In this document: piece by piece, positions 18,810-23,974 of the stretch
Numbering within the stretch: the first letter of the stretch is position 1
Layout: each line of letters begins with the position of its first letter
Assembly: GCF_015223105.1 (NCBI RefSeq)
Contig: NZ_JADFTZ010000005.1
Location: forward strand, 1-64,000
Origin: Flavobacterium proteolyticum
GTDB taxonomy: Bacteria; Bacteroidota; Bacteroidia; Flavobacteriales; Flavobacteriaceae
Direction of reading: 5' to 3'
Length of the DNA: 64,000 bases
The notes under the pieces: generated by a model
The model's input: the letters and a program-made list of their open reading frames with translations, nothing else
Told to the model about the DNA's origin: nothing
Database searches by the model: none
Position numbers and translations under genes: made by a program

Positions 18810-20276
18810 ATGAGCCAAGAAATAAGAAATTTAGAGCCAAAAGCCCTTTGGAACAAATTTGCCGATTTGAATGCCGTTCCGCGTCCGTCTAAGAAAGAAG
18901 AGCGTGTGATTGCGTTCATGATGGAATTCGGACAAAAATTAGGATTGCCAACTGTGAAAGATCATGTGGGGAATGTAATTATCAAAAAACCTGCGACTCC
19001 AGGAATGGAAAACCGCAAGACCATTGTAATGCAATCGCATTTGGATATGGTACACCAAAAAAACAACGACACGAATTTCGATTTCGATACACAAGGAATT
19101 GAAATGTATGTTGATGGTGATTGGGTTCGTGCTAAAGGAACTACGCTTGGTGCTGATAACGGTTTAGGAGTAGCAACTATCATGGCGATTTTAGAAAGCA
19201 CTGATATTCCACATCCAGCAATTGAAGCTTTATTTACAATTGACGAAGAAACGGGAATGACAGGGGCAATGGGCTTACAAGGCGGCATGCTTGACGGAGA
19301 AATTTTACTGAATTTAGATACTGAAGAAGACGATGAAATCGATATCGGTTGTGCAGGTGGAGTAGATGTAACAGCTACTAGAACTTACAACGAAGAAGAA
19401 ACGCCAGAAGGTTCTGTTGGTTATACTATTACCGTGAAAGGCTTAAAAGGCGGTCACTCGGGAATGGATATTCATAAAGGATTAGGAAATGCGAACAAAA
19501 TCATGAACCGTTTATTATTTGACGGATTTGAGAATTTTGGTCTTCAAATTTCTGAAATTTCTGGAGGAAGTTTGCGTAATGCGATTCCGAGAGAAAGCGT
19601 TGCAAAAGTAATTATCGCGGCGATTTATGACGAAGCTTTTGTTTTTGATATGCAAGAAGTTATCAATGAAATCAAAGCCGAGTTCAAAACTATGGAGCCG
19701 AATTTAACGATTGAGATTGTTAAAAGCGAGTCAACTCCAGCAAAAGTAATGGATTTAGGCGTTCAAGAAGGTTTGTTACGAGCGATTTATGCAGCACACA
19801 ACGGCGTTTACAGAATGTCAGCTGATATGGCTGATTTAGTAGAAACATCGAATAATATTGCAAGAGTAATCGTAAAAGATGGCGAAATTTCAATTCAGAA
19901 TTTAACGCGTTCGTCTGTGGAGAGTTCTAAATTTGATTTGGCTAATGCTTTGCGTTCGGCTTACGAATTGTTTGGTTGCGAAGTTGAATTTGCAGGAAGT
20001 TACCCAGGTTGGACACCAAATGTAAAATCGGAAATTTTAGATGTATTGACCTCTATTTACGAAAAACAAAACGGTGCAAAACCAAATGTAGTAGCGTGTC
20101 ACGCTGGATTAGAATGTGGAATTTTAGGAACGAATTATCCAAACATGGACATGATTTCTTTTGGACCAACCATCCACGGAGCACACAGCCCAGATGAAAG
20201 AGCGAGTATTTCTTCTGCTCAAAAATATTGGAAATTTGTATTGGAAATTTTAGAGAATATTCCAGTTAAGAAATAA
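18810..20276 (+). CDS. pepD: aminoacyl-histidine dipeptidase (M20 family)
   Basis: The 488-residue product matches PepD, a di-zinc aminopeptidase that hydrolyses Xaa-His and other dipeptides in the cytosol. Metal-site segments are visible: QSHLDMV (about 75-81), GADNGLGVA (about 115), the catalytic IDEETGMTGA (about 148-157) and CHAGLECG near residue 430. There is no signal peptide. It has its own promoter and terminator and stands alone. Confidence 0.93.
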   Translation: MSQEIRNLEPKALWNKFADLNAVPRPSKKEERVIAFMMEFGQKLGLPTVKDHVGNVIIKKPATPGMENRKTIVMQSHLDMVHQKNNDTNFDFDTQGIEMYVDGDWVRAKGTTLGADNGLGVATIMAILESTDIPHPAIEALFTIDEETGMTGAMGLQGGMLDGEILLNLDTEEDDEIDIGCAGGVDVTATRTYNEEETPEGSVGYTITVKGLKGGHSGMDIHKGLGNANKIMNRLLFDGFENFGLQISEISGGSLRNAIPRESVAKVIIAAIYDEAFVFDMQEVINEIKAEFKTMEPNLTIEIVKSESTPAKVMDLGVQEGLLRAIYAAHNGVYRMSADMADLVETSNNIARVIVKDGEISIQNLTRSSVESSKFDLANALRSAYELFGCEVEFAGSYPGWTPNVKSEILDVLTSIYEKQNGAKPNVVACHAGLECGILGTNYPNMDMISFGPTIHGAHSPDERASISSAQKYWKFVLEILENIPVKK

Positions 20277-20300
20277 GAAGATAGAAAATAGAATAAAGAG

Positions 20301-20332
20301 AAAATCCCGAGTGAATGCTTGGGATTTTTTTG
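20301..20332 (+). terminator. Terminator of pepD
   Basis: AAATCCCGAG pairs with CTTGGGATTT (one G-U pair) and a T-run follows, 25 bases after the pepD stop. Confidence 0.8.
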
Positions 20333-20335
20333 TGT

Positions 20336-20407
20336 TGGCGCGAGCATCTTGCTCGTGACTATTTTTATGATTTGCTTTGTGTGCACGAGCGTGACGCTCG
20401 CGCTAGC
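20336..20407. repeat. REP-like imperfect hairpin, copy 2
   Basis: The left arm TGGCGCGAGCATCTTGCTCG pairs with a right arm containing CACGAGCGTGACGCTCGCG, with CTAGC beyond, around an AT-rich centre ending GTGTGC. The right half is almost identical to copy 1 at 279-301. Like copy 1, it lies just beyond the 3' end of a solitary leftward gene with its own inverted-repeat flank. Confidence 0.72.
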
Positions 20408-20444
20408 GGGGAAAATCCAGAAGTAGCCATTGAAGCAAACCGTT

Positions 20445-21035
20445 GTTAGCAGATGTTATTATTCTCGTTTATAACAATTGCTTTGTATTGTTACAATTTC
20501 GATATTTTTTTCGCTATATAATTCTTGATTAATTGTATTTTCAGATGGAATAGATTTATCTTGCTTAATATGAAACTTAAAATTTTTATATCCTAATCCT
20601 AAATATTCTGAACAGCCTTCTTTAAACCAATACAAAGAATCTTTATGTTTAATATCTTTTGCTTTTAGAGTTGACAAATCTATGTATTTTCCATCTGTTA
20701 AATAACCTTTAAATTCTTTGTTCAGAATGATTTTATAAATTGTGCTATCTGCTAAATGAATTTGAAATATAACGTTTTTGTAAGATGAAAAAGTAAAACC
20801 GCTTTTATGTTGATAGCCAGGAATTTTTAAAGGTGTAATTCCATTTGGACATTTATCTAATTCTTTGACTAAAACTGTAGTTAAAGGTTGTCCAAAATCT
20901 GAAATTTTAGTTTCACACAATTTAATTTTTGATAAATCAGTTAAATCACTTTGTGATAGGATTGTATGATTTATAAGTATAATTAATAAAAAAGTAAATA
21001 GTGATTTCATAGAGTTTTTTATAATATCTGCTAAC
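20445..21035 (-). mobile_element. candidate single-gene cassette bounded by an inverted repeat
   Basis: GTTAGCAGATGTTAT at the left and ATAATATCTGCTAAC at the right are inverted copies with 14 of 15 positions matching. They lie at the stop codon and 10 bases before the start codon of the enclosed gene, so the gene fills the unit. The ends resemble integron attC core sites (GTTRRRY / RYYYAAC) but do not match them exactly. No integrase is encoded in the window. Classification as a cassette is an inference. Confidence 0.35.
20459..21010 (-). CDS. hypothetical exported protein in a cassette-like unit
   Basis: I do not recognise this family. The ATG at 21010 gives a signal peptide (MKSLFTFLLIILINHTILSQ); a longer in-frame opening would bury it. 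The 160-residue mature part has two Cys (LCETKIS, DKCPNG), another in EGCSEYLG and one near the C terminus (SNCYK), which could form periplasmic disulfides. It is AT-rich, has no operon partner, and is tightly bounded by a 15-bp inverted repeat with a REP-like hairpin outside. It may be recently acquired. Function unknown. Confidence 0.72.
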   Translation of the reverse strand: MKSLFTFLLIILINHTILSQSDLTDLSKIKLCETKISDFGQPLTTVLVKELDKCPNGITPLKIPGYQHKSGFTFSSYKNVIFQIHLADSTIYKIILNKEFKGYLTDGKYIDLSTLKAKDIKHKDSLYWFKEGCSEYLGLGYKNFKFHIKQDKSIPSENTINQELYSEKNIEIVTIQSNCYKRE

Positions 21036-21162
21036 TCGTTTATATACGAAACTTTCGAACTAGTATCATACCATATTGGCAAGATTGGCGAAAGTTTGGC
21101 AAGTTTTTATTTCGCTTATTTTTTTAACGAAATCAAATATAATAAAATATTTACAATTTCTA

Positions 21163-21196
21163 AAACAAAAAAGGCCCACTTTCGTGAACCTTTTCG
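21163..21196 (-). terminator. Terminator of the TonB receptor/PepSY operon
   Basis: On the minus strand AAGGTTCAC pairs with GTGGGCCTT through two G-U pairs, then TTTTTTGTTTT follows. The PepSY gene stop is 5 bases away on its upstream side. Confidence 0.7.
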
Positions 21197-21200
21197 TTTA

Positions 21201-21749
21201 TTAACTCAAAATAATTAAAACTAAGATGGGGAAAATAATTCCGGCTACGGCTAGTTTCCAGCCTCGCTTTTTAAAGGTGTTTTTGCCGTGGGTTACCATT
21301 AAAGTTCCCGTTATGGCAATTAATATTAAGGAGATTCCAAAAATGTCAGAGTAGTAAATCCACCAGTTAGAAGTGTTTTTGTGCAACTTCATCGTTTGAC
21401 TGATAATCGGTGTTTTGTTGAAGGCAACAATTTCACCTTTACCTGTTTTCATATCGATTTCTACATCGTGCTTTTCAAACGAAATTTTAAACGTACCTTT
21501 CTTTACGTTATGGCGACGCATTTTATCATCGATGCCCAATTGTTTTCCTAAGTTTTCAGCAAATTCTTCTGTAATTTGGCTTTCTTCTGGTAATTGTACT
21601 TTGATGTTTTTGGTTTCAATCGTATATTTTTCAGGATGCCAATGCTCTCTGTGGTTCATTAAAATTCCTGAAAAAGCAAACGAAATAATTAATCCTACGT
21701 AGAAGTAACCAAAATCGCGGTGAATGTCTCTAACTAATTTTTGTTTCAT
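21201..21749 (-). CDS. PepSY-associated membrane helix protein
   Basis: A 182-residue protein with a membrane helix near residues 12-33, a soluble PepSY-like middle (FKISFEKHDVEIDMKTGKGEI), and two further helices near 128-152 and 162-181. The first helix begins after VRDIHRDFGYFYVGL, typical of PepSY_TM proteins that accompany TonB-dependent siderophore receptors; some of these act in reduction or release of iron. It follows the receptor gene by 20 bases and ends at a terminator, so the two form an operon. Confidence 0.85.
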   Translation of the reverse strand: MKQKLVRDIHRDFGYFYVGLIISFAFSGILMNHREHWHPEKYTIETKNIKVQLPEESQITEEFAENLGKQLGIDDKMRRHNVKKGTFKISFEKHDVEIDMKTGKGEIVAFNKTPIISQTMKLHKNTSNWWIYYSDIFGISLILIAITGTLMVTHGKNTFKKRGWKLAVAGIIFPILVLIILS

Positions 21750-21769
21750 GTTTTTATTTAATTGAATTC

Positions 21770-23974
21770 TTAAAATTTGTATCGTAAGGAAGTTAAAATT
21801 TGTCTTGGGGCAATAGGGTTTACACTGTAATTTTCATGTAAAGTATAATTCAACTCGTTGGTAATATTAGATAATTTGCAAAGTAATGAAAATTGTTTCC
21901 AATTGTAACCTAACGATACATCAATTGTTGTGTAGCCATTAACTGGAATTTCTCTATCCCAAATTCCGTTTGGATAAGCAGGATTTACTTGATTGTTCCA
22001 ACCTCCAAGTCTGTCACCAATATAGTTTCCAATCGCTCCAACCGATACATTTTTAAGAACTCCAGTTTGTACCGTATAAAAGAAACTTAAGTTAGCTGTA
22101 TGCTGAGGCGTTCTTACCAAACGATCGCCTTCTATAAAACTTCCTGTGGCACCAGTGGTTTTGGTATAACGCATGTCGTTATAACTATATCCTGATATAA
22201 TGTTTAAACCATCAATTGGTTTGTAGTTTAAGTCTAATTCAATTCCTTTACTGGTTGTTTCTCCGCTTAATGCTTTTACGTTAGTATTGGTATTGATGTT
22301 TCCGTTTGCATCAAATTCAGCTGTTTGTGCTAAATTGCTGTTTACAATTTGATATAAAGTAACGTTTGTTGTTAATTTTCCTTTAAAGAATTCGTTTTTA
22401 ACACCTACTTCAATTTGGTCAATAATAGAAGGTTTAATCGCTTCATTGTAAATGGTTACTCCCGTATTTGGTGTGAATGAGTTGGAGTAACTAGAAAATA
22501 AAGTAGTGTATTTGGTAGGTTGGTAAATCAATCCTACTTTAGGTGAAAAAGCTCTGTCGTTTCGGATGGTTTCTTCTGTAACTGTATTTGCAGCGATATT
22601 GTATGTCTCTGGTTTTGCTTCTTGGTATGAATAACGAACGCCTAATAACGCTTTGAATTTGTCAGAAAACGAAATTAAATCTTGTGCATAAACTCCAAAA
22701 CGTGTAGTTTCTGTTTTTACGATTCTCGTTACTTCAGAAGGTAAAATTGGTCCTTCATTTGAAGCTGCATAAGACGACGGATCAAAAATATTTACGGTAT
22801 CGTATGTAGTTACGGTTGCTCCTGTTGTTGGATCATAAAATCTGAAAGTGTAAGCATCAGCATAAGAAATTTCAGTATCGATACCCGTAAACAATTGGTG
22901 TTTGATTTTACCTGTTTTAAAGTTGCCTTGTAAACTAATCTGGTTAGCAAAAATTTGTTCTACGGCTTTATTTCTTCCGTAAGGACGATTCCAATCGCCA
23001 TTTGCCGCAGGTTGAATACGTTCTGTACCAATCGATTCTCTATCGTAATCTTGGAAAGAAGAATTAAAATTCAGTTTCCATTTGGGATTGAATTCATGGT
23101 TTACTAATATCGAAGCGGTTGCTTGTTTGGTGTTTCCATTTGACCATTTTGCCCCTAAATAAGCGTTTCTTGGTACATCTGCAATTTCTTTTCCAATAGA
23201 ACCAGTTCCGAAATCTGGTGTCCAATCGTCGCTTAAATAATCGGCTTGAAGCGTGATTTCTGTTTTGTCACTCACTTTAAAAAGTAGAGAAGGATTTACG
23301 TAGTAACGTTCTTTAGTAACATAATCTCTAAAACTTTCTGAATTTTCATACGAACCATTAAAGCGATAGGCAATCGAATTATTAAAAGCACCATATACAT
23401 CAGCTGAAGGTTTGTAGAAATTGTAACTTCCGGCTTGCATTGTAAATTCGCCGCCTGTTTTGAAATTTGGAGATTTAGTTACCATATTCATAATTCCTCC
23501 AGGTGCTACATTTCCGTATAAAAGAGCAGCACTTCCTTTTAGAATTTCTACTTTTTCTAATGAAGCCACTTCGGGAATAGAACCACTATTAAAACGGAAA
23601 CCATTTTTAAACATGTTATTTGCCGACATATCATAACCTCTTGACCAAAACGATTCTTGAGCACCGCCACGAGCCGAACCCACGTAAACACCGTTGGCAT
23701 TTTTAACCACATCACTTAAACGAATCGATTGTTGTTGTTGGATAATTTCTGAACCAATAACCTGAATAGCTTGAGGTAAATCTTTTTCTTTGATTCCAGC
23801 TCGGTTAACTGAAGACTTAGAAGGATTATTTTTTCCGTTAATGACTACTTCGTTTAACGTTTTTACAGTATCGTTTTCTGTAAAATAGTTTTCGCTAACA
23901 TCGTTTGGGGTTTGTTGGGCCACTGCCTGAAAAGAAGACAGTAGTACTATAGATTTGAAAATGTTTTTATACAT
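21770..23974 (-). CDS. TonB-dependent siderophore receptor
   Basis: This 734-residue outer-membrane receptor has a signal peptide (MYKNIFKSIVLLSSFQAVAQ), a plug domain (DLPQAIQVIGSEIIQQQQ, then ASLEKVEILKGSAALLYGN about 135-155), and a 22-strand-type barrel ending in the aromatic C-terminal residue of RYKF. The plug and barrel order resemble the ferric-hydroxamate (FhuA/FoxA) type. There is no CarboxypepD-like N-terminal domain, unlike the receptor at 61.6 kb. The promoter is flanked by two near-identical palindromic sites, which suggests iron-responsive repression. The ligand is not determined. Confidence 0.92.
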   Translation of the reverse strand: MYKNIFKSIVLLSSFQAVAQQTPNDVSENYFTENDTVKTLNEVVINGKNNPSKSSVNRAGIKEKDLPQAIQVIGSEIIQQQQSIRLSDVVKNANGVYVGSARGGAQESFWSRGYDMSANNMFKNGFRFNSGSIPEVASLEKVEILKGSAALLYGNVAPGGIMNMVTKSPNFKTGGEFTMQAGSYNFYKPSADVYGAFNNSIAYRFNGSYENSESFRDYVTKERYYVNPSLLFKVSDKTEITLQADYLSDDWTPDFGTGSIGKEIADVPRNAYLGAKWSNGNTKQATASILVNHEFNPKWKLNFNSSFQDYDRESIGTERIQPAANGDWNRPYGRNKAVEQIFANQISLQGNFKTGKIKHQLFTGIDTEISYADAYTFRFYDPTTGATVTTYDTVNIFDPSSYAASNEGPILPSEVTRIVKTETTRFGVYAQDLISFSDKFKALLGVRYSYQEAKPETYNIAANTVTEETIRNDRAFSPKVGLIYQPTKYTTLFSSYSNSFTPNTGVTIYNEAIKPSIIDQIEVGVKNEFFKGKLTTNVTLYQIVNSNLAQTAEFDANGNINTNTNVKALSGETTSKGIELDLNYKPIDGLNIISGYSYNDMRYTKTTGATGSFIEGDRLVRTPQHTANLSFFYTVQTGVLKNVSVGAIGNYIGDRLGGWNNQVNPAYPNGIWDREIPVNGYTTIDVSLGYNWKQFSLLCKLSNITNELNYTLHENYSVNPIAPRQILTSLRYKF

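Follow-up and report, generated by a model that had tools for sequence, protein, structure and literature searches.

The window, by which we mean the whole 64,000-nucleotide stretch of Flavobacterium proteolyticum DNA analysed here, contains a single gene for a 183-aa product on the minus strand at 20459..21010, flanked by GTTAGCAGAT... and ...ATCTGCTAAC. On the same strand, the gene lies between a right arm, GTTAGCAGATGTTAT, at 20445..20459 and a left arm, ATAATATCTGCTAAC, at 21021..21035, which match in inverted orientation at 14/15 positions. The right arm has an R''-like core (...TGCTAAC) and overlaps the stop codon at 20459-20461, and the left arm starts 10 nt before the minus-strand ATG that begins at 21010 and would contain the crossover, G|TT, between 21035 and 21034. 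Behind the right arm is an attC-like remnant (20410..20447, minus strand) of about 38 nt out of a 148-bp site, and behind this cut site is a REP-like hairpin (20338..20403, no strand assigned) with 20-nt arms at 85%. At the other end, an attI-like site without an adjoining integrase, TATATAAACGAG|TTA, occupies 21032..21046 (minus strand), and upstream of it a conserved flank (21047..21110, minus strand) contains a TTGGCAAG-like run at 21076-21103. The inverted arms with their positions relative to the stop and start codons, the hairpin outside the left end in window coordinates and the run of TTGGCAAG-like motifs had been described in an earlier, sequence-only reading of this DNA, and all three were recovered. 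As it stands, what we read as a shortened cassette spans 20410..21034 (minus strand) and consists of the left end TTAGCAGATATTAT, the gene, the right end ATAACATCTGCTAAC and the attC-like remnant. Its constant neighbour on the attI side is a PepSY_TM-like gene (21201..21749, minus strand), and its neighbour on the attC side is an M20 peptidase gene (pepD-like; 18810..20276, plus strand), found at the same place in loci L100 and L106.

The 183-aa product has a signal-peptide-like N terminus, as judged by eye, and matched no Pfam family above the cut-off; a plasmid search with it returned nothing above the cut-off. One other of 60 relatives has a homologue (36% identity, in G016), and no further one was found among 397 family genomes. 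An Rfam search of 19800-21800 at a permissive threshold gave 14 matches, all under the gathering scores.

By themselves, the arms are no better than chance. The window holds 19 inverted pairs with at least 14/15 matching positions at a spacing of 300-900 nt, overlapping registers counted separately, and five of these, the studied pair among them, have at least five G/C per arm. In the genome, the arm motif is exact at two places only, which are the two ends of this unit, and with up to three mismatches there are 286 matches versus 263 for a reversed control. Because the arm pair is unremarkable in an AT-rich window, a comparison with relatives and with the array was needed to decide its meaning. 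A first pattern search with TCTGCTAACAACGG in 150 genomes gave 7 places in 6 genomes; beyond the F. proteolyticum genome itself, only two matches, both in G146, resembled cassette ends, and the other four were apparently in unrelated sequence. In G146, reached through this cassette-end pattern, unrelated genes share an end core that is followed by palindromic sites of ~120 bp, and a pattern for such palindromic sites matched in 20/150 genus genomes, with 2 matches for a reversed control.

The PepSY site in relatives

Beside the PepSY gene, four relatives (G023, F. sasangense, AWTP1-28 and F. lacisediminis) carry other genes between other arms. The unit is thus not constant within the same flanks in all relatives, the case that the sequence-only reading had named against itself; its content differs between them. 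The PepSY protein of G023 is 98% identical to that of the window, the right flank shares 96.7% identity across 1181 bp as far as the boundary and the stretch past the left arm is 87.7% identical over 57 bp; between these shared flanks, G023 has a different gene of 193 aa with the arms GTTACCAGTA / TACTGGTAAC. The flank of F. sasangense is identical as far as AAACGAG|TT, after which there are different genes with the arms TTACAAGTA / TACTTGTAA and, ~3.5 kb further on, a whole attC-like site. In F. lacisediminis, a third gene is followed by a complete attC-like site and then, as in the window, by the M20 peptidase gene, with no REP-like hairpin at the site. AWTP1-28 has a 176-aa gene without an attC, with the same REP-like hairpin as in the window directly behind it and then the peptidase gene. 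The contigs of G023 and F. sasangense end before reaching the peptidase. G023 and F. sasangense have the same flank as that at 21047-21110, and AWTP1-28 has fewer TTGGCAAG-like copies there. Comparison with G023 (L071), F. sasangense, AWTP1-28 and F. lacisediminis placed the boundaries of the window cassette, with AG|TT on the left; on the right, the similarity of the unit to the attC sites of its own genome stops at 20410. Past the attC of F. sasangense, there is a second cassette end (TTGTGTGTAAT) and then an open frame (L101:10254-10745), which we take to resemble an IS30-type transposase.

Of 80 named PepSY loci, five (AWTP1-28, F. sasangense, F. lacisediminis, F. croceum and UBA5153) have an attI-like site scoring 16.7 bits or more in the 700 nt downstream, and two further loci score 12.4 and 14.1. 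Seven of the ten close relatives with a PepSY protein at least 98% identical have no attI-like site above 12 bits within 700 nt, and the DNA there differs. A clean empty site, which the sequence-only reading had proposed to look for, was not found among the relatives' PepSY loci.

Over 566 bp, the cassette at the PepSY site of AWTP1-28 and array cassette C13:190439-191013 of F. proteolyticum share 95.6% identity. The match begins at the G of AG|TT and ends at the start of the hairpin sequence. This shared cassette ties the site to the array better than any resemblance would. It also bears on the idea that homologous recombination between strains replaced what the site contains, with no site-specific recombinase involved and the cassettes elsewhere irrelevant. 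Strain-to-strain exchange is possible for the G023 case, given flanks that are 96.7% identical, but the AWTP1-28 cassette matches an array cassette that lies elsewhere, with a match from G|TT and flanks that do not match, and we consider this explanation improbable. That the unit is an ordinary fixed gene and its arms a chance inverted repeat is very unlikely. The 19 pairs of like quality and spacing in the window, and a motif not repeated elsewhere in the genome above chance, would fit such an origin, but relatives have different genes with different yet internally matched arms at the same place, a remnant of the genome's own attC type lies directly behind the right arm with an attI-like site at the left, and the swap of gene plus arms in G023 already refutes it.

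The cassette array and its attC-like sites

The assembly comprises 17 contigs, with arrays at contig ends. For searches, we used an attC covariance model built from 29 training sites, which were collected by a letter pattern that fixes the conserved ends and several of which come from genomes within our 150-genome sample. In the stem, 95.8% of cells are paired and 9/14 pairs have changes on both sides; as a control for covariation, 0/500 shuffles reached the observed value for four of five measures, and 24/500 for the fifth. The model matched the F. proteolyticum genome at 53 places, 47 of them at E 0.001 or better. Forty-five of these strong sites are in arrays: 36 on the contig of the window (C13:181144-207609), 7 on the small contig C1 (C1:116-4649) and 2 at the end of C14 (C14:154220-156539); outside arrays, there is one on C9 and one on C15. 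The dominant site is 148 bp long, and its first part, GGTTTGCTTCAATGGCTACTTCCGGATTTTCC, is the stretch behind the right arm of the window unit with one change. Compared with attC sites of the genome's own array, the remnant in the window is 88-97% identical across 33-58 bp in the pieces listed; in the covariance search, it scored 16.2 bits (E 3.7 for the genome), being too short for a significant match.

The ends of array cassettes are complementary (at least 6 of 7 positions) in 34/35 cases, and 0/10,000 shuffles reach the mean. By contrast, the two arms of a single attC site, which come from neighbouring cassettes, match in 2/35 only, and it is this difference that gives the arms in the window their meaning. 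The arms that the sequence-only reading expected around other genes do occur in the sense that arms of the same logic enclose the array cassettes; the exact arm sequence is confined in this genome to the unit itself. Array cores read GTTR in 35/36 and YAAC in 35/35, and fit the integron consensus in one site each (GTTRRRY 1/36, RYYYAAC 1/35), in agreement with the deviation from that consensus noted before. The longest ORF of at least 50 aa is co-oriented in 30/35 array cassettes, which are thus mostly single-ORF and co-oriented; it is opposite in 1, and 4 have none. In circular form, the genome's own sites fold into hairpins, with the bottom strand more stable in 30/35. The covariation, the 36-site array and the folding of the circular forms together identify an array of hairpin-folding attC sites. 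A search with 18 array proteins gave four with a Pfam match above the cut-off, namely two SUKH (SMI1/KNR4), one cation efflux and one TPR protein.

Across the genus sample, 130/150 genomes have at least one attC match at E 0.001 or better, some of these genomes having supplied training sites; a count of 21 for a genome in this search stands for at least 21. An IntI-like recombinase is present in 54/66 genomes with at least ten attC matches versus 31/84 of the rest (Fisher 2.8e-8, uncorrected for relatedness). It is missing, at E 1e-26 or better, in 12/66 genomes with at least ten matches, and 4/20 genomes without attC matches do have it.

The recombinase and its attI-like sites

No integrase adjoins the unit, as the sequence-only reading had stated; the genome does have one, a tyrosine recombinase of 580-608 aa at C14:173-1999 (L207:173-1999), followed by GATATTTACTAG|TTGTGCG. 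The cassette at this integrase-side attI is identical at 118/118 positions, up to the contig end, to a cassette inside the genome's own array. In G023, the integrase end is the same, the first cassette behind it is a different one and three complete attC sites are present there. In G104 and G170, a tyrosine recombinase gene is immediately followed by attC-like arrays of like orientation. A similar attI-like site precedes the first cassette in 20/26 integrase loci (one locus being counted twice among the 26); judged by sequence likeness, an attI thus appears to lie beside the integrase gene. An attC site is downstream of and co-oriented with the integrase in 11/26 loci, within the short stretches covered, and L197 is a twelfth with another arrangement. 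From 20 integrase-side sites, hand-picked and none of them from the window, we built an attI matrix in which the AGTT columns are fixed by choice. As the sites were picked by eye at AGTT, only the letters before AGTT count as evidence. On both strands of the 64 kb, the right-flank site of the window is the best match at 16.8 bits, and the next scores 13.3.

The integrase lacks the IntI-specific additional domain around patch III. It scored 210 bits against TIGR02249, the cut-off of which is 265, with model positions ~181-240 skipped. The distance from the Arg box to HxLRH is 94-95 residues in the 12 Flavobacterium proteins readable by pattern (14/26 could not be read), compared with 136 residues in 26/28 true IntI. 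The integrase also does not group with IntI in the tree: 24 IntI rows form one group (98/98), and 24 Flavobacterium rows fall outside it (93/81, below the starred level). This tree has E. coli XerC and XerD as its only outgroup and flagged long branches, and it leaves out L201, L256, L257, L266, L282 and the duplicate L195, with L267 and L269 unreadable. The attC model matched 0/30 true-IntI loci, which says little because the model was built from Flavobacterium sites.

The integrase loci (L187-L212) encode proteins of two sizes, ~341-354 and 552-585 aa from the first ATG (one has 276 aa); both sizes have attI-like sites and cassettes behind them, and they form mixed groups in the tree. When the model of the whole integrase (mean pLDDT 67) was the query of a fold search, only recombinase cores matched. 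The ~260 N-terminal residues of the long type are predicted to form three similar beta-beta-alpha-beta-beta-alpha modules, and when searched by itself (pLDDT 74), this part had no match in Foldseek at 0.001. Its resemblance to the N-terminal part of XPB and to the HARP domain of SMARCAL1 (E 0.47, VIA-align Z ~6 and 4.4) is too weak to claim.

The absence of the domain matters for the reading in which the unit is a classical integron's cassette and the true IntI lies in an unassembled gap. Such a gap is conceivable in an assembly of 17 contigs with arrays at contig ends, and true IntI proteins do occur in other classes of the phylum, in which 105/395 genomes exceed the cut-off; in its own class or nearer, one above the cut-off was noticed, in G599. 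However, the TIGR02249 cut-off was passed in 0/150 genus genomes, though 130/150 carry attC-like sites, and an insert-less recombinase stands directly before attI and cassettes in F. proteolyticum, G023, G104 and G170. We thus see hardly any likelihood of a hidden IntI.

Integron likeness and stranded cassettes

We conclude that the unit is very probably one gene cassette from an integron-like system in the Flavobacterium chromosome, and that it is almost surely an integron cassette in origin. The observed anatomy of the unit, the exchange of content at its site, the shared cassette with an exact junction, the arrays and the integrase neighbourhood form the basis of this conclusion. The likeness to integron cassettes noted by the sequence-only reading is borne out by the attI-like left boundary, the cassette-specific complementary ends, the first part of an attC-like site and the different genes and arms that relatives have at this place. 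Its suggestion of an undescribed, self-contained single-gene element did not hold, as the unit is part of an integron-like system whose large array and integrase lie elsewhere in the genome, and as a whole that interpretation is partly supported.

The system works like an integron and departs from it in two defining respects, the IntI domain and the core consensus. With chromosomal integrons (superintegrons), CALIN and single-attC remnants, it shares cassettes that are co-oriented and carry a single ORF, an array of long and nearly identical attC sites, R''/R' arms complementary within a cassette, a crossover at G|TT, an integrase with an adjoining attI and solitary remnants. In contrast to these, the Flavobacterium core is GTTR plus free letters rather than GTTRRRY, the integrase is without the IntI-specific domain, attI lies directly behind the integrase stop codon with the array in the same direction, and there are dispersed attI-like sites without an integrase. 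Archaeal integrons similarly have attI immediately downstream of the integrase gene, whereas passages of the same paper state that archaeal IntI has the additional domain, which they treat as characteristic of IntI (PMC9668308). That domain was the basis on which intI genes were chosen in PMC2426708, a passage of which cites Messier and Roy 2001 for its being necessary for activity. XerA/Xer recombinases (NF040815; PDB 5hxy) share the insert-less catalytic core and are the best solved-structure match by sequence and fold; the Flavobacterium proteins differ in adjoining cassette arrays and, in the long type, in an N-terminal part of ~260-300 aa that has no Pfam match. Bacteroidota are among the phyla with integrons according to a review (PMC8618304), and the integron of Salinibacter ruber M1 belongs to Bacteroidetes in the wide sense; the passages of PMC9024848 that describe it as complete by the standard tool do not mention Flavobacterium arrays. 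In the open-licence literature, we found no report of Flavobacterium cassette arrays.

The most probable history of the unit begins with an excised cassette, the attC-like site of which would have folded into a hairpin and been inserted by an IntI-like tyrosine recombinase, presumably the genome's own integrase. The insertion point would be G|TT of the attI-like site downstream of the PepSY gene, a crossover supported by sequence comparison; scattered attI-like sites of this kind may serve as targets. Comparison also shows the complementary arms to be one recombination core, that of the cassette itself, divided in two on insertion, and the donor was most likely the array of the same lineage. 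Later, the distal attC was lost, and the REP-like hairpin is now found where it had been, which should prevent excision and fix the cassette. The hairpin occupies the place of lost attC sequence at the PepSY site in two genomes (in the window and, behind the cassette gene, in L100). Some 38 nt of attC remain ahead of the hairpin in the window, and none at all in AWTP1-28. With attC cut or lost and a hairpin behind, both cassettes should therefore be unable to leave, and the window cassette is probably locked in place, attC loss being the likely lock.

The inverted ends and the adjoining hairpin could also suggest a non-autonomous MITE-like transposon that has terminal inverted repeats and is mobilised, via the REP-like hairpin, by a transposase or RAYT-like protein, a reading we reject as the least credible because the arm sequence is specific to its cassette, occurs exactly at just two places and is no family-wide terminal repeat, and because the F. 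lacisediminis cassette has a whole attC and no hairpin at the site; moreover, an 18-mer of the hairpin arm is exact at one genome place besides the window, C10:257079, that is, at two in all.

Beyond the single cassette, Flavobacterium may have its own integron-like lineage, in which folded attC sites recombine without the IntI domain, perhaps aided by the N-terminal three-module part acting as a DNA-structure-binding array, in which attI-like sites without an integrase are scattered, and in which single cassettes leave a shuffling array and are locked by attC loss. We regard the case for and against this wider reading as evenly balanced. Such a lineage would have gone unrecognised because its integrase and core sites fail standard models. 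Among the chief ways in which bacteria store and reshuffle accessory genes are gene cassettes, and, if the reading is true, standard integron searches would overlook large cassette arrays in a genus common in fresh water and soil. These arrays would be handled by an integrase without the domain reported necessary for integron activity, and the role of the IntI-specific domain would therefore be testable by comparison.

Stranded cassettes with a cut attC show how mobile genes may turn into ordinary fixed genes. The strong attC-like matches outside arrays belong to two solitary units, with no integrase within their 2.5-kb stretches. At C9:1187525-1187663 (L237), an attI-like site (17.0 bits) lies 472 nt upstream of a decayed attC core, with a 143-aa gene; at C15:72600-72741 (L238), the attI-like site (19.6 bits) lies 506 nt upstream, and the unit has a 164-aa gene and again a decayed attC core.
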